Assembly (NCBI GenBank): GCA_017622995.1
Contig: JAGAQA010000041.1
Location: 1 to 64,000 of the forward strand
Reading direction: 5' to 3'
From: Oscillospiraceae bacterium
GTDB lineage: Bacteria > Bacillota > Clostridia > Oscillospirales > Oscillospiraceae
DNA length: 64,000 bases
Positions 3-64,000 of the stretch are shown here, in pieces. A program made the translations under genes and the position numbers. Below the pieces are notes generated by a model. That model was not told the DNA's origin, ran no database searches, and saw only the letters and a list, made by a program, of their open reading frames with translations. Position 1 is the stretch's first letter, and every line of letters begins with the position of its first letter.

Positions 3-119
3 TTCGATGACTTCGCCAAACAGCTTGCTGTCAGGCAGAGACGCTATAACGCTTTCCCCATGAGACCCCTCAACTGGATGGCTCCCAAAGATGTTCTTTA
101 TTCTTTTCCTAATGTGTAA
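3..119 (+). CDS. C-terminal end of a DDE-type transposase/integrase (runs off the left edge)
   Basis: The first reading frame is open from the window edge and stops at 117-119. The 38 visible residues include RRYNAFPMRPLNWMAPKDVL. This resembles the tail of integrase-core transposases, where a YN..RP..L....P pattern follows the last catalytic residue. Only the C-terminal end is visible, so neither the IS family nor intactness can be judged. The fragment points to an insertion sequence immediately to the left of the window. Confidence 0.6.
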   Translation, partial: FDDFAKQLAVRQRRYNAFPMRPLNWMAPKDVLYSFPNV

Positions 120-42571: not shown

Positions 42572-44380
<1,809 letters not shown>

Positions 44381-44430
44381 ATTTGGGCGACCTCTCTTGA
44401 TGAATTGGGCATACAAATTGCATTTTATCA

Positions 44431-44459
44431 ATTATAACGGGAATTTCCAGAAAAGTAAA
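44431..44459 (-). promoter_or_regulatory. Promoter of the lepA-hemW-comEB-rrf2 operon
   Basis: Minus-strand TTTACT (44454-44459), 17 bp, perfect TATAAT (44431-44436). Confidence 0.7.
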
Positions 44460-44554
44460 CCGTATGTTTTCACGAAAAAAGGGGAAAACTCCAAGCGTCG
44501 CCCAGAAAAATCCGACAATTTGCGCAAAAAGGGAATTCATTTTTGAAAAAACCC

Positions 44555-44583
44555 TTGCCGAAAACAAAAAATCGGGGTATAGT
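44555..44583 (+). promoter_or_regulatory. Sigma-A promoter of rpoD
   Basis: TTGCCG (44555-44560), 17 bp, TATAGT (44578-44583), about 55 bp before the ATG. Confidence 0.75.
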
Positions 44584-44643
44584 CTTATGGCGTGAGAAAA
44601 TGCTGTGACACACATCGCTTTGAGAAGATGAGAGGGATAGAAT

Positions 44644-45801
44644 ATGAGTACTGCCAAAAAGCCGGTGAAGCCCGGGGAAGACCTTCAGGCATCCATGCAG
44701 GCCCTGATCCTGAAGGGCAAAAAAGAGGGCATGATCAAGGACACGGAGCTGAATGCCATCCTTGAAAAAATGCAGCTGTCCCCGGAAAAGATTGAGGAAA
44801 TCTATGACCGGTTTGATTCCATGAATATCCAGGTCGTGACCACCGAGCTGGAAATTGACGATACCCTGGACGTGCTGGGCGACGGCCTGGGTGACGGCCT
44901 GGATGACGGCCTGGACCTGCGCAGCATCGAGGAAGAGGAGCTCATCGACCCCGTAGACCTGGCTGCCGAATACAGCCTGGATGATCCCGTGCGGATGTAC
45001 CTGAAGGAAATCGGCCAGGTAAAGCTCCTGTCCGCCGAGGAAGAGGTGGAGCTTGCCAAGCGGGTATCCGAGGGAGACCAGGAGGCAAAGAACAAGCTGA
45101 CGGAGGCCAACCTCCGGCTGGTTGTCTCCATCGCCAAGAAGTATTCCGGCCGGGGCCTGCACATCCTGGATCTGATTCAGGAGGGCAACACGGGCCTCAT
45201 TCGTGCCGTGGACAAGTTTGACTGGACAAAGGGAAACAAATTCTCTACATATGCCACCTGGTGGATCCGGCAGGCCATCACCCGTGCCATTGCCGACCAG
45301 GCCCGGACCATCCGGGTGCCGGTGCATATGGTTGAGGTCATCAATAAGGCCACCCGCTGCAACCGAAAGCTGGTCCAGGAGCTGGGCCGGGAGCCCACCA
45401 TGGAGGAGATTGCCGCGGAGCTGAACCTGCCTGTGGAAAAGATCATCGAGGCCAACCGGACCGCCGCCGATACCCTGAGCCTGGACACCCCCGTGGGCGA
45501 TGAAGAGGATACCTCCATCGGCTCCTTTGTGGAGGACGAGCGGACCCCCGGCCCTGCCGACGCCACCTCCAACGCATTGCTTGCCGAGGCCCTGAAGGAG
45601 ATTCTGGGGACGCTGACCGAGCGGGAGGCCGACGTGCTGCGGATGCGCTTCGGTATGTACGACGGCCGGACCCACACCCTGGAAGAGGTGGGCCAGATCT
45701 TCGGCGTGACCCGGGAGCGGATCCGCCAGATCGAAAACAAGGCCATCCGCAAGCTCCGCCACCCCAGCCGCGCCAAGAAAATCCGGGATTTCTACTGCTG
45801 A
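44644..45801 (+). CDS. rpoD: RNA polymerase primary sigma factor
   Basis: This is the housekeeping sigma-70 (SigA) that reads the -10/-35 promoters seen throughout. At 385 residues it is close to Firmicutes SigA. A short region 1.1-like N-terminus is followed by an acidic repeat ([17 protein letters not shown], ~79-95), then region 1.2 ([18 protein letters not shown]), region 2 ([41 protein letters not shown]), region 3 and region 4 ([20 protein letters not shown]). It stands alone here, without dnaG upstream, unlike the classic dnaG-rpoD arrangement. Confidence 0.95.
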
Positions 45802-59450: not shown

Positions 59451-60824
59451 ATGAACTATGATGTGCTTATTATTGGCGCCGGCCCCGGCGGCATTTTTTC
59501 TGCATACGAGCTGGCGCTGCGGGCGCCCGGCCTGAAGATCGGCGTTTTTGAGGCCGGTCATCCGCTGAACAAGCGGGCCTGCCCCATCAACGGCACCACC
59601 ATCAAGAGCTGCATTGGCTGTAAGAGCTGCTCCATCATGTCCGGCTTCGGCGGCGCGGGGGCCTTTTCCGACGGAAAATACAACATCACCAATGATTTCG
59701 GTGGCACCCTCTACGAGTATATCGGCAAGAAGCGGGCCCTGGACCTGATGAAGTATGTAGATGACATCAACATGGCCTACGGCGGCGCGGGCACCAAGCT
59801 CTATTCCACCGCGGGCACCAAGTTTAAGACCATCTGCATTCAGAATGACCTGCACCTGCTGGACGCCTCCGTGCGCCATCTGGGCACCGACATCAACTAT
59901 GTGGTGCTGGAAAACCTGTACGCGTTCCTTCAGGACAAGGTGGACTTCCACTTTGATACCCCGGTCCGGGGCATCCGCTGCGTAAGCGGCGGTTACGAGG
60001 TCCGGTGTGACAGCGCCTCCTATACCTGCAAACAGTGCATCGTCTCCGTAGGCCGCAGCGGCAGCAAGTGGATGGAAGAGATCTGCCGGGAGATGGAGAT
60101 CCCCACCCAGTCCAACCGTGTGGACATCGGCGTCCGTGTGGAGCTGCCGGCGGTGGTGTTCTCCCACCTGACCGACGAGCTCTACGAGAGCAAAATTGTC
60201 TACCGCACCCAGAAGTATGAGGATAAGGTCCGCACCTTCTGCATGAACCCCAAGGGCGCCGTGGTCAACGAGAACACCAACGGCATCATCACCGTCAACG
60301 GCCACAGCTACGAGGATCCCGCCAAGCAGACGGAGAACACCAACTTTGCCCTGCTGGTTGCCAAGCACTTCTCCGAGCCCTTCAAGGATTCCAACGGCTA
60401 CGGTGAGTCCATCGCAAGGCTCAGCAATATGCTGGGCGGCGGCGTCATTGTTCAGCGCTTCGGGGATCTGATCCGGGGCCAGCGCTCCACCCCCAAGCGG
60501 ATGGAGGAGAGCTTCGTCACCCCCACCCTCAACGCCACCCCCGGGGATCTGAGCCTGGTGCTGCCCAAGCGGATTCTGGACGGCATCATCGAAATGCTCT
60601 ATGCCCTGGATAAAATCGCCCCCGGCACCGCCAACGACGACACCCTGCTGTATGGCGTGGAGGTCAAGTTCTACAATATGGAGGTTGCCGTGGACGAGCA
60701 TCTGGAAACCAAGTATCCGGGCCTCTATATCATCGGCGACGGCAGCGGCATCACCCATTCCCTGTCCCATGCCTCTGCCAGCGGCGTCCATGTGGCCCGC
60801 CGGATCGCCGGCTTCCAGGAGTAA
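59451..60824 (+). CDS. FAD-dependent oxidoreductase (NAD(P)/FAD family), Cys-rich
   Basis: The 457-residue protein starts MNYDVLIIGAGPGGIFSAYE, a Rossmann FAD loop. It has a cysteine cluster CPINGTTIKSCIGCKSCSIM (~44-63), then GFGGAGAFSDGKYN, and ends with YIIGDGSGITHSLSHASASG, the FAD-ribityl motif. This architecture fits the uncharacterised flavoproteins related to the YhiN/BaiN and GidA-like dehydrogenases; the C-x2-C-x2-C segment may hold an Fe-S cluster. Reaction unknown. It is monocistronic and convergent with the recombinase-SpoVT gene. Confidence 0.8.
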   Translation: MNYDVLIIGAGPGGIFSAYELALRAPGLKIGVFEAGHPLNKRACPINGTTIKSCIGCKSCSIMSGFGGAGAFSDGKYNITNDFGGTLYEYIGKKRALDLMKYVDDINMAYGGAGTKLYSTAGTKFKTICIQNDLHLLDASVRHLGTDINYVVLENLYAFLQDKVDFHFDTPVRGIRCVSGGYEVRCDSASYTCKQCIVSVGRSGSKWMEEICREMEIPTQSNRVDIGVRVELPAVVFSHLTDELYESKIVYRTQKYEDKVRTFCMNPKGAVVNENTNGIITVNGHSYEDPAKQTENTNFALLVAKHFSEPFKDSNGYGESIARLSNMLGGGVIVQRFGDLIRGQRSTPKRMEESFVTPTLNATPGDLSLVLPKRILDGIIEMLYALDKIAPGTANDDTLLYGVEVKFYNMEVAVDEHLETKYPGLYIIGDGSGITHSLSHASASGVHVARRIAGFQE

Positions 60825-60887: not shown

Positions 60888-63041
60888 TCAGCTTTCCATC
60901 TGCTTTCCCAGAAAGCCGGCGATGGCTTTGGTCAGACCCTGTTCGCTCTGACCCAGGGGCTTGTCATGTTCTTCCAGCAGGAGCAGGACGCTTCCCATCA
61001 GGTCCCCCTGAGAAAGGATGGGGGATGCGGCGCCCAGATGGTACTTGCTCTCCCCCTGGGAGGCCTTTATGGGATTGTCGCCCTGCTGATAGAGATAGTT
61101 TTTCCGCTGCTCCATCAGCTTTTCCAGCTCCGGGGAGTTGGGTTTGTCCAACAGCTCCTTCCGGGGTGCCCCATGAAGGGCGATGATTCCGTCCCGGTCC
61201 GTAATGGCCGTAATGTGCCCCGTGGCGGCGCTGACGGATTCACACATCTGGCTGGCAAATTCCTGCAAATCCCCCATGGGGGAGTATTTCCGGAAGATCA
61301 CGCCCCCGTCCTTTTCCGTGTAAATCTCCAAGGGGTCACCGTTACTGATAACATTGACACGGAAAACCTTGTCCTCGTGGTTTTTTGAGGACTGAATCAG
61401 CCGGTTTTCGATATTTTCCGTGCCCGAATTAAAATTTACGGCGTTCTCCTTTTCGCTCACGTGAAGCAGAGCGTCAATGTCCGCCTGTAAATAGATTTCC
61501 AGCCGATCTTCATAGACCTGAATACGCTGGATGATAAGCTCCAAATCGTTTCGGTCAAGGGATTCCTTATTCAGAATGTCTTCAAACACATCCAAGGCAG
61601 TCTTTGCCGTTCGGTTAATCTGGATGATGGTGTTACGCTTGTCGGACAGCATGGTGATCTGATGATCCAGCCCCTCAATCTTCTTTTGCAGGTCGGCTTC
61701 CAGTTCGTCGTAGGTTTCCGCCAGCAGTTCCTCCTGTTCCGGGTGCTTCATGATGTCCCGGATGCGCTGCCGCTTGGTGGCTTTCAACTCCTCCCGCAGC
61801 TGACCCATCACCTGCGCCAGATGGTCGGCGGACTGCTCGGTTTCCAGGACATCCTCGGTTTTCCGTGCCAAATCGGCGTTGAGCTGCGCCAGCATGGAGC
61901 GGGAGTTTTCTTTTACCTTTTTCACATAGAGCTTGAGAAGCTCGTCCAGCTTGTCTACTCTTATATGGTGAGAGGAACAGGCAGCACGCCCCCGGCGGTG
62001 ATAGGTGCCGCAGGTGTAGGCGGGGCTTAAATCCTTGCGGCTCATGGCGAACATGGGACTGCCGCAGTCGCCGCAGAAGAGAAAGCCGGAGTAAACATTG
62101 CCGTATTTCTTCACGCCACGGTAGTTGGCGGTGGAGCGCTTCTCCCGCAACGCCCGGGTGGTGGCGAAGGTGCGGTAATCGATGATGGGCTGGTGGTGGT
62201 TCTCAATGACGATGTGTTCCTCCTCGTCCCGGCGGACATCCTTGCCGTTGATTTTGGCACGGGTATATTTCGCCTGCCGCAGGGTGCCGATATAGAAATC
62301 GTTGTCCAGAATCCCCTGCACCGTCACAATCGCCCAGGCGGCTTTGGTTTTCCGGGTGGTGGTTTCGCCCTCGGCTTCCTTGCGCATTTGCTCCGACATC
62401 CGGGGGGTGGGAATGCCCTGCTCGGTCAGGTAGTTGGCGATTTTTTTGTAGCCCCAGCCGTGGTTGTTGTAGAGATCAAAAATCTGCCGCACAACTTCTG
62501 CTTCCGTCGGCACGATCTCGAATTCTTTCTGCTTGTTGATGATGTAGCCGTAGGGCGCAGCGCAGAGCCATTTGCCGTCCGCCTGCCGCCGCCGGATGAC
62601 ATTCTTCACCTTTTTGCTGGTGTCGGTGACAGGCATTTCGTTAATGAGGAACTGGAACTGAATTTTCAGCCAGTCGTCATCGTTGGGAAAGTCAATGTTG
62701 TCGCCGATGGAGATGATCCGCACGCCGGCATCCCGCAAATCCTCCAGCTCCACCAGTCCCCGGCTGTTCCGCCGGGAGAATCGGGAAAAGTCCTTTACCA
62801 CCAGAATGTCATACTGATGACGAATCAGACCCTTTCGCATGGCCTGATAGCCTTCCCGCTGTTCAAAGGTATAGCCGGAGCGATCCCGATCTTCGTAGAA
62901 TGTCAGGGAGCTTCCCGGGAAGCGGGTATTGACGAAATCCTGAATGATGGCCTTCTGGTTTTCGATGGACACATTGTCCCGATCCAGTTCCTCATCCACG
63001 GAGATACGGCAGTAGCCTGCTATGTCAAAGTGTTCAATCAT
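60888..63041 (-). CDS. Large serine recombinase fused in frame to the C-terminal domain of SpoVT
   Basis: The ATG at 63041 (AGGAGGTGCAAC upstream) gives 717 residues. Residues ~5-150 are the serine resolvase domain (GYCRISVDEE with catalytic Ser; VVKDFSRFSRRN). Next come the recombinase domain (EAEVVRQIFDLYNNHGWGYKKIANYL), a zinc ribbon (FLFCGDCGSPMF; CGTYHRRGRAACSSH) and a coiled coil to ~520. Residues 568-717 (60891-61340), from GDPLEIYTEKDGG to GFLGKQMES, are SpoVT without its first ~30 residues, including FRKYSPMGDLQEFA and the GAF domain. The AbrB-type DNA-binding half is thus incomplete. The simplest reading is integration of a mobile element into spoVT, with its recombinase reading across the attachment site. 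Confidence 0.9.
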   Translation of the reverse strand: MIEHFDIAGYCRISVDEELDRDNVSIENQKAIIQDFVNTRFPGSSLTFYEDRDRSGYTFEQREGYQAMRKGLIRHQYDILVVKDFSRFSRRNSRGLVELEDLRDAGVRIISIGDNIDFPNDDDWLKIQFQFLINEMPVTDTSKKVKNVIRRRQADGKWLCAAPYGYIINKQKEFEIVPTEAEVVRQIFDLYNNHGWGYKKIANYLTEQGIPTPRMSEQMRKEAEGETTTRKTKAAWAIVTVQGILDNDFYIGTLRQAKYTRAKINGKDVRRDEEEHIVIENHHQPIIDYRTFATTRALREKRSTANYRGVKKYGNVYSGFLFCGDCGSPMFAMSRKDLSPAYTCGTYHRRGRAACSSHHIRVDKLDELLKLYVKKVKENSRSMLAQLNADLARKTEDVLETEQSADHLAQVMGQLREELKATKRQRIRDIMKHPEQEELLAETYDELEADLQKKIEGLDHQITMLSDKRNTIIQINRTAKTALDVFEDILNKESLDRNDLELIIQRIQVYEDRLEIYLQADIDALLHVSEKENAVNFNSGTENIENRLIQSSKNHEDKVFRVNVISNGDPLEIYTEKDGGVIFRKYSPMGDLQEFASQMCESVSAATGHITAITDRDGIIALHGAPRKELLDKPNSPELEKLMEQRKNYLYQQGDNPIKASQGESKYHLGAASPILSQGDLMGSVLLLLEEHDKPLGQSEQGLTKAIAGFLGKQMES
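61332..61340 (-). other. Approximate attachment-site junction between element and spoVT
   Basis: The SpoVT-like sequence begins at minus-strand GGTGACCCC, coding Gly-Asp-Pro of the conserved GDPLEI segment. To the right the reading frame is recombinase sequence. The crossover must lie at or near this point; the exact dinucleotide cannot be fixed without the other end or an empty site. Confidence 0.6.
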
Positions 63042-63151
63042 GTTGCACCTCCTGTTCTGATAATATCTATTTGAATATTGATGTTTATAGATAACATTGT
63101 ATATCATGAATCTACAAATTGCAAGAACTTTTTTCGGGAGTCTGTTGGCAG

Positions 63152-63192
63152 CAAAAGTTACCGCACGCTTTCCCGGCGTGCGGTAACTTTTG
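63152..63192. terminator. Perfect 17-bp hairpin upstream of the recombinase gene
   Basis: Arms CAAAAGTTACCGCACGC (63152-63168) and its full complement (63176-63192) with a 7-nt loop lie 14 bp beyond the stop of the small gene at 63207 and ~110 bp before the recombinase start. TTTT on the minus-strand 3' arm fits a terminator that would separate recombinase expression from the upstream genes. Confidence 0.7.
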
Positions 63193-63206
63193 AGACGAGC
63201 AGGAAA

Positions 63207-63470
63207 TTACAGCTCCATCTGGGCGGACTTCTGTGCCTTCTCCCGCCGGACTGCCAGCTCTGCACAGCGCTTTTTGTTGTATGCCAACAAATCCAGGGTG
63301 CTTCGTTGCAAGTCCTCTTTCCCGGAACGGAAGACGGCTACCATATACTTCTGCTTCTTCCATTGGGCATACATGGGTTTCAGGTTCGCCTGTACAGCAG
63401 CATCCTCAGCCTCTTTCCGAGTTAGCCACACCTGAACCAGTTTCTTTGCATCGTCCTGAATAATCTCCAT
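63207..63470 (-). CDS. Small mobile-element protein (87 residues), unknown function
   Basis: The product begins MEIIQDDAKKLVQVWLTRKE and contains LKPMYAQWKKQKYMVAVFRSG and DLQRSTLDLLAYNKKRCAEL. I recall similar short proteins next to serine recombinases on conjugative elements of Clostridia, but no function is known to me. It is highly charged, mostly helical in appearance and has no signal peptide. It lies 165 bp upstream of the recombinase, separated by a terminator-like hairpin. Confidence 0.6.
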   Translation of the reverse strand: MEIIQDDAKKLVQVWLTRKEAEDAAVQANLKPMYAQWKKQKYMVAVFRSGKEDLQRSTLDLLAYNKKRCAELAVRREKAQKSAQMEL

Positions 63471-63587
63471 GTTAATGCCCCCTTTTCTTCAAATTATTGC
63501 CATATCTTTCTCTTTTAATGCGAATAGGCGTGCTCCTTTCTCCGGCAGGCAATCCTGCGCGTGTTGGTTTACGAACCTCGTTTTCGG

Positions 63588-63824
63588 TCAATCGTCTCTT
63601 CGCTTCTGCCAGACAATTTCATAGCCCAGTATATCGGCAAGCTCCAGCACCTCCCGATAGCGAAGGGTCTGGTCGCTCAGCTTAGCGGAAAAGTTGGAAT
63701 CGCTGTCACTCCAACCGTACTCCGCGGAGCAGGCTTCCACCGCTTCCTTCTGGGTATAGCCCGCCGCGATGATGTGGGACTGGATGTCACATTTCACTTT
63801 GTTGATTTTTCTTCCCTTTTTCAT
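63588..63824 (-). CDS. Small helix-turn-helix-type regulator of the mobile element (78 residues)
   Basis: The protein reads MKKGRKINKVKCDIQSHIIA, then AGYTQKEAVEACSAEYGWSDSDSNFSAKLSDQTLRYREVLELADILGYEIVWQKR. The GWS..SNFSAKLSDQTLRYREV.ELAD.LGY pattern is typical of small XRE/LLM-like DNA-binding proteins of conjugative transposons. AGGAGGGAACG precedes the ATG. It probably regulates element genes. The 117 bp between it and the next gene, and the 176 bp to the window end, hold nothing else that I can support. Confidence 0.6.
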   Translation of the reverse strand: MKKGRKINKVKCDIQSHIIAAGYTQKEAVEACSAEYGWSDSDSNFSAKLSDQTLRYREVLELADILGYEIVWQKRRDD

Positions 63825-64000
63825 GTTCGTTCCCTCCTGTATTTGATGCTGTTTTCTGTGAAGTTGGTTTCCTGTATGGTGCTTTTTCTACGTAACTGTA
63901 AATTCCTTCCATTTTCTGTCAGCCATGTCCGGGTCATGGACAGGTCTGGCAAATGTTGTGTATGGCGAACCAATTGCGCAGCCGGTGCAGTCCTTTCCCG

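Follow-up and report, generated by a model that had tools for sequence, protein, structure and literature searches.

The locus analysed here raises the question of why a large serine recombinase (LSR) is read, in a single open frame, into the C-terminal part of the sporulation protein SpoVT. It lies in a 64,000-nucleotide stretch (hereafter, the window) of a 2.55-Mb draft genome of an Oscillospiraceae bacterium, namely positions 1 to 64000 of contig C31, which extends to 82,687. It was found that the recombinase stands at the right end of an island that splits spoVT at one codon, and that it reads through the junction in frame. We consider it probable that this is a 20.65-kb integrative LSR island whose excision in the forespore, driven by a small protein of 87 residues, would restore SpoVT. 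The features on which the first part of the argument depends are as follows.

60888..63041, minus strand: LSR-SpoVT chimeric frame (ATG at 63041, stop at 60888, 717 amino acids)
61341..63041, minus strand: recombinase portion, with catalytic, recombinase and zinc-ribbon domains and a linker with the end DKVFRVNVISN
61333..61340, minus strand: right attachment core GGTGACCC
60891..61340, minus strand: spoVT 3′ half, i.e., the remainder of the AbrB-like domain and the SpoVT_C domain
61340..64000: portion of the island within the window, continuing to about contig position 81985, where the 5′ spoVT fragment begins
C31:81985-81992, minus strand, outside the window: left attachment core GGCGACCC

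The initial annotation had described one frame holding a complete serine recombinase followed by the C-terminal part of SpoVT, and the open reading frame (ORF) and its Pfam matches show that this frame is real and lies on the minus strand. The matches occur in the order Resolvase (PF00239), Recombinase (PF07508), Zn_ribbon_recom (PF13408) and SpoVT_C (PF15714), so that the resolvase, recombinase and zinc-ribbon domains that define an LSR are present in a single protein. The SpoVT_C match covers positions 1-128 of 128 (E 1.5e-37). The chimera would be 739 amino acids long if started at an earlier in-frame ATG (63107). As had also been claimed, the SpoVT portion opens at GDPLEI, and its AbrB-like DNA-binding domain lacks the first half; the missing half is on the same contig.

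This missing spoVT start was located beyond the window, at C31:81981-82082 on the minus strand, and consists of a ribosome site, an ATG and 33 codons up to GDP, followed by a tail that runs to a stop. The initial annotation had proposed to look for such a 5′ fragment beside a matching site at the far end of the element, and it was found beside GGCGACCC, the right end having GGTGACCC. The two ends have GGNGACCC in common, the insertion point corresponds to spoVT codons 31-33 (GDP), and 20,652 bp separate the equivalent bases of the left and right GDP codons. In one related genome (G281) the right end reads VDP and not GDP, and the exchange would therefore fall inside GACCC, if the site is constant throughout. 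When the window's two halves were joined in silico at the GACCC core, a gapless SpoVT of 180 amino acids was obtained. A matching spoVT start is present in 16 of 25 fused genomes of the family. Halves joined in silico gave proteins of 179-181 amino acids with 0-1 gap positions relative to the best intact SpoVT in 16 of 16 cases; the rejoined proteins of G281 and G197 have 99% identity with intact proteins of their own genera. One of these 16, that of G367, has a damaged start, with its first nine codons replaced and two stops. No second SpoVT_C match above the cut-off was found in the window genome, which is estimated to be 100% complete. Therefore, the claim that the element lies within spoVT is borne out: a sporulation-gene coding sequence is interrupted, with its 5′ and 3′ parts flanking the island on one contig, its frame is restored in silico by joining at a short common core, and a site-specific recombinase of the element's own stands at the border, as in gene-intervening elements.

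The arrangement recurs widely. SpoVT_C is present in 318 of 400 genomes of the family, and the fused frame in at least 31 of these 318 (25 recognised through open frames, the window's included, and six, G039, G128, G134, G145, G194 and G202, through a junction profile). The same profile gave at least 32 spoVT fusions in 394 genomes of the order and at least 6 in 391 genomes of the class, with G000 and G440 occurring in both of these sets. In all, 57 distinct fused loci with 13 family labels were collected, each of them in frame and at the same codon of spoVT, which the selection of loci in part required, and a scan of named genomes, limited to the best 80 of 450 relatives, gave a fusion in 80 of 80; the 57-locus and 80-locus sets overlap. 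Because the arrangement recurs in this way, a chance origin of the fusion is excluded. By record title, most hosts are Oscillospiraceae or other Clostridia, and named records include Butyricicoccus pullicaecorum DSM 23266, Flintibacter muris DSM 110149, Pseudoflavonifractor sp. An85 and Flavonifractor sp. An100 and An306, the last of which is apparently the same as G367, with the damaged spoVT start.

It is hardly credible that the fusion is a chimera of assembly. Most of the genomes are draft or metagenome assemblies, and on one contig (C23 of G031, loci L049, L068 and L048) the spoVT halves lie in reversed order, but independent assemblies agree with one another, the single-contig genomes G078 and G128 included, and the fused end is found also in named-strain records such as that of B. 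pullicaecorum DSM 23266. Between the reversed halves of G031 lie about 18.6 kb with genes of chromosomal appearance, due to either a rearrangement or a misassembly. In another genome of the family (G294, contig C10) two SpoVT_C matches, at 44303-44680 and 60014-60391, lie about 16 kb apart.

The initial annotation had also proposed to look for an uninterrupted spoVT in relatives, and it was found: 8 of 10 members of the window's genus have one, the exceptions being G000 and G399. In G399 (loci L083 and L084) both spoVT halves stop at contig ends no more than about 25 nt from the core. A synteny comparison found that spoVT flanks within the window's own genus are not shared; the empty-site test therefore rests on the genera g52 and g21. 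In g52, the interrupted G197 and the intact G137 form one well-aligned pair adjoining a common downstream flank (2565 bp at 88.9% and 809 bp at 88.8%). Among other genera compared, the intact start was unrecognised in g47 and the alignment covered 63 bp only in g32. A long open frame in G131 was tried as a fusion and rejected, as it holds a full SpoVT. In G279, of the window's genus (locus L050), a complete spoVT is preceded at about 2.3 kb by an additional spoVT start that has an element-like tail. A hydrolase-like gene separates the two, and the additional start is perhaps an island relic.

One explanation of a junction that is in frame at 57 of 57 collected loci is that selection acts on the recombinase-GAF protein as such and that spoVT is not meant to be rejoined. 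We regard such a fixed functional fusion as very improbable. Although every collected locus is fused in frame, this state probably goes back to a single ancestor, and the 57 junctions are thus not 57 independent events. The spoVT starts present in 16 of 25 genomes have promoters where these are readable. The 30 codons before the core have a median ratio of nonsynonymous to synonymous polymorphism (pN/pS) of 0.76, which is weak protein constraint, together with low synonymous change in close pairs, as would be expected of an attachment site. Neither of the two findings that the initial annotation had associated with a fixed fusion, a complete separate spoVT with no 5′ fragment or the lack of an empty site in close relatives, was made.

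Recombinases that are not fused to SpoVT also use the site. In G150 (L127), G499 (L129) and G1114 (L136) a recombinase frame without the linker stops before the same core; these were considered as frameshifted members of the fused lineage, and rejected on account of the absent linker and the stop before the core. The right-end DNA of G460 (L137), the only part of that locus seen, is nearly identical to that of G499 and G1114. Non-fused recombinases at the same core, in at least three loci, show that a recombinase can use the site without being fused. Control of excision by signal binding at the GAF domain, or by competition of the chimera with intact SpoVT, as the initial annotation had suggested, is a further conjecture. 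Furthermore, in G767 (L135) and G367 (L058) other DNA takes the place of the first nine codons of spoVT, up to just before DDLGR, in G767 with a recombinase-like C-terminus at the replaced start, possibly marking a second insertion site in spoVT that in G367 is occupied together with the first. Recombinases of the fused lineage are also found elsewhere: that of G515 (L128) enters an unrelated gene at GGCGAC, and that of G573 (L126) lies at another site, these two being the same-lineage recombinases unjoined to SpoVT among the profile matches listed. Taken together, the non-fused users, the damaged starts and the LSRs elsewhere indicate that SpoVT is a recurrent target and that the fusion is a property of one lineage.

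If the island is to leave spoVT when SpoVT is needed, the timing may be sought in the promoters of the recombinase and of its upstream neighbours, which are as follows.

63096..63124, minus strand: sigmaA-like recombinase promoter (TTGCAA, 17 nt, TACAAT; 9 of 12 consensus bases)
63153..63191, minus strand: inverted repeat between the 87-residue gene and the recombinase, a terminator by eye that the terminator scan did not list
63207..63470, minus strand: conserved small protein of 87 amino acids, candidate recombination directionality factor (RDF)
63492..63521, minus strand: near-consensus forespore-type promoter of the 87-residue gene (GCATT, 15 nt, GGCAATAATT)
63588..63824, minus strand: 78-residue ORF of the island, with a weak PHROGs match (E 0.0028) to a family of unknown function

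The interrupted spoVT of the window genome has the promoter GCATA-16-AAACACTA, 33 nt before the ATG, and among 54 stretches upstream of spoVT, from intact and interrupted genes alike, a forespore-type pattern was found for 35 loci. Clostridioides difficile spoVT is reported to be under sigmaF and sigmaG, and its mutant yielded no heat-resistant clones (PMC3789822). The host genome has two Spo0A_C matches and one SpoIVA match. As regards the recombinase, a TACAAT box was seen by eye before 18 of the 24 LSRs listed and was absent in six. The 87-residue protein has no match in Pfam or PHROGs, and a homologue of about this length lies near the LSR in 42 of 57 loci. The pattern G[ACT]ATA-15..18-RRANAHTA occurs within 120 nt before the start of the small gene in 19 of 42 copies (13 of 42 in a stricter form), compared to a mean of 0.2 and a maximum of 3 of 42 in 300 rounds of shuffling, and it occurs in 0 of 46 LSR upstream regions and in 0.56% of 5,700 random windows. 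The window's GCATT-15-GGCAATAATT is conserved in L159 and nearly so in L160.

These observations are consistent with the following mechanism. The island would have been inserted by its own LSR into spoVT codons 31-33. The recombinase, made in growing cells, would keep or put the island in place, and the 87-residue protein, made in the early forespore from a sigmaF-like promoter, would turn the reaction to excision, so that a whole SpoVT is again available where the cell requires it. The island might afterwards persist as a circle and reinsert after germination, or be lost from the lineage and regained by transfer. Excision that would restore spoVT in sporulation is the best-supported function from the sequences, and related islands probably must leave for spores to form. 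That the timing is that of the forespore, that the process is reversible and that the exchanged C-termini have a role is what we infer.

Excision might instead occur stochastically, at a low rate in growing cells and with no cell-type programme, so that only island-free cells sporulate. Integrated and circular forms of the yin element in yabG of Clostridium botulinum are described as coexisting within a culture (PMC10747680), and the contigs of G399 and of locus L264 end at the core or no more than about 25 nt from it, as mixed junctions would cause; L264 is an IMG/VR record of a viral contig (L242/L264), which ends at the core. Against this stands the forespore-type pattern that 19 of the 42 candidate directionality genes have upstream, and we regard stochastic excision as unlikely.

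Sequence constraint was compared between interrupted and intact spoVT. The median pN/pS of the C-terminal half was 0.534 for interrupted genes (84 pairs) and 0.528 for intact genes (59 pairs) at pS 0.15-0.55. Therefore, interrupted spoVT is as constrained as intact spoVT. In the N-terminal half the ratio of nonsynonymous to synonymous divergence (dN/dS) was 0.016, 0.049 and 0.066 in the three computable pairs among those listed. In the pair G134/G194, nine colinear blocks align over about 8.3 kb at 78-92%, the recombinase and C-half included, and the downstream flank aligns over 2.57 kb at 89%; the LSR dS is 0.43 and the C-half dS 0.29, with a C-half dN/dS of 0.04, and the island and flank were likely co-inherited. 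In G231/G392 the LSR dS is 0.56 and the C-half dS 0.59, and the left ends align in parts.

Other pairs differ from these and show transfer. In G145/G202 the LSR dS is 0.21 and the C-half dS 1.65, in G079/G084 the LSR dN is 0.078 and the C-half dN 0.343, and two cross-family pairs have a C-half dN/dS of 0.24 and 0.42. In a tree that took in 55 of the 57 recombinases, host families are mixed, with one family label (f1) needing at least 7 changes on well-supported branches. The islands are thus mobile, and some lineages also retain them over time. The mismatched divergences and the higher C-half dN/dS values suggest that many insertions may be recent, which weighs against the main reading. A rival view is a simple parasitic knock-out, in which the carriers do not sporulate and spoVT appears conserved as insertions are recent and often precisely lost; gut Clostridia can lose sporulation, and the mixed tree and the two pairs with a much less diverged LSR favour this view. 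We nevertheless find it distinctly unlikely, as the island and flank of G134/G194 have diverged together while the C-half dN/dS is still 0.04, the promoter, ribosome site and N-half are preserved, and the window genome retains its Spo0A and SpoIVA matches.

Further points weigh against forespore-driven excision. An open reading through the junction was in part a condition of selection: the fused loci were first picked by a long open frame and the junction profile, and later by a required in-frame upstream stretch. The spoVT start was not found in 9 of the 25 fused family genomes, most of them draft assemblies, and 15 of the 57 loci, some with little upstream sequence, are without a recognised homologue of the 87-residue protein, which is a candidate for the directionality role only by its location and promoter pattern. 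That pattern is a relaxed form of the spoVT promoter, chosen once the sequences had been inspected, and the 87-residue genes are related by descent; the window's own copy is only near-consensus and fails both the pattern and a promoter matrix trained on spoVT promoters, which gave 0 hits over the whole window island. Sporulation of the carrier species is presumed. Lastly, the circular-element junction that the initial annotation had proposed to look for did not appear: the pattern was found in 0 of 400 family genomes, and its one match in viral contigs was a chance hit in an unrelated 92.8-kb contig. The viral contigs L240-L242 were examined as circles and rejected, L240 and L241 running into SpoVT at the contig end and none of the three closing.

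The left end of the island provides a further aspect of the fusion. A conserved tail of 23-31 residues follows the core in 22 of 22 distinct left ends, most of them W..FC..MLDLAKR-like. Three close pairs gave a tail dN/dS of 0.07, 0.13 and 0.14, and the more distant G000/G031 gave 0.31; the median pN/pS of the tail over 120 pairs was 0.52, close to that of the C-half (0.47) and far above that of the N-half (0.06). Third codon positions account for a modestly larger share of changes in the tail (40%) than beyond the stop (34%). In an excised circle, this left-end tail would continue and complete the LSR frame, and integration would thus swap the C-termini of the recombinase and SpoVT: in the integrated state the LSR tail would be replaced by the SpoVT GAF domain, and the SpoVT start would gain the LSR tail. 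This resembles engineered fusions of serine integrases with RDFs, in which the attached protein alters the direction preference of the integrase (PMC5737554); here, unlike in those fusions, it is a GAF domain of the host that becomes attached, and the recombination event makes the exchange. We tentatively consider it possible, though doubtful, that the locus is a reversible germ-line switch, with excision in the forespore and hence a change to the chromosome of the spore, reinsertion after germination by the tailed recombinase and exchange of the C-termini, the tail or GAF domain biasing the direction.

The islands differ in size and cargo. Both ends lie on one contig in the expected order in ten cases, with sizes by subtraction of about 6.8, 8.0, 15.0, 15.6, 16.0, 17.3, 20.7, 32.4, 38.3 and 40.1 kb. 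In the window island, 8 of 10 ORFs scanned have Pfam matches: a LacI-type regulator, a sugar-binding protein, ThuA, a major facilitator, a xylose-isomerase-like protein, an AlbA/schlafen-type regulator, a UvrA-like ABC protein and DUF6061. Other ORFs we take from their sequence to be a ribokinase, RbsD, a transporter ATPase and permease, and an alcohol dehydrogenase. Among the families listed for three other islands (the first 25 of 46, 34 and 40 families of G078, G281 and G197, respectively), G078 has glycan biosynthesis genes, G281 restriction and abortive-infection genes, and G197 Cas9 and acetyltransferases, so cargo differs among the four islands examined. The closest relative found (L159) has 93% identity over the chimera and similar ends, with a 6.8-kb island of other cargo. 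No phage structural genes were found in 13 window-island ORFs scanned with Pfam, and the island does not qualify as a prophage; the DUF6061 protein matches a PHROGs phage family of unknown function (E 1.1e-24, one of four ORFs scanned), and a single tail-tube-like gene is among the families listed for G078. No relaxase or conjugation genes were seen in the window-island Pfam scan or the families listed for the three other islands. The left ends, some of them short, have no common gene set, DUF6061 occurring in 4 of 18. The UvrA-like protein is 824 amino acids long (C31:67044-69518; L009 7044-9518). Directly upstream of the interrupted spoVT, a CRISPR-type repeat array was seen by eye at C31 ~82203-82687 (L010 ~2203-2687), running off the contig end.

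The sporulation genes sigK, spsM, spoVFB, spoVR, gerE and yabG act in the mother cell. The mother cell dies, and the spore therefore keeps an element that interrupts such a gene. SpoVT acts in the forespore, and excision there would need to happen in the cell that becomes the next generation. It is these six genes that are named as interrupted in the parts available of PMC10747680, PMC5025042 and PMC5595907. The closest likeness is to the C. difficile skin element in sigK (CD1231, CD1234), in which a constitutive recombinase is combined with a mother-cell-specific directionality factor (PMC5025042): there, as here, a sporulation gene holds an LSR with a sigmaA-type promoter and a separate small gene under developmental control, a control that is putative here and drawn from the promoter pattern. 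Unlike in skin, the target here is forespore spoVT, the recombinase is fused in frame to the target protein, the putative control gene has a forespore-type promoter pattern and the cargo varies between relatives. The gin element in gerE of Bacillus cereus is likewise not a prophage and encodes GirX, a small accessory protein, in addition to its recombinase (PMC5595907), but its target is a mother-cell gene and its small protein has 42 amino acids; the likeness drawn here is one of description, and the parts of that paper available mention no recombinase-target fusion. The yin (yabG), SPbeta (spsM), vfbin (spoVFB) and spoVR elements also interrupt sporulation genes and are excisable, with spoVT not among the targets named in the portions available (PMC10747680, PMC5025042).

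Among the matches listed from open-access PMC literature, no report of an element or recombinase in spoVT was found; the accessible text of PMC3789822 treats spoVT and a recombinase on separate matters, and that of a systematic LSR survey (PMC10083194) does not name spoVT. The best reading of the locus is a sporulation intervening element with a logic like that of skin and a new, forespore target. If this is true, sporulation, and hence host-to-host transmission, would be coupled in these Clostridia to a mobile island and its state. Since the carriers include records of named strains, the question can be tested directly; the exchange of integrase C-termini that occurs here in nature would also provide a direct test of how the direction of a serine integrase is set.

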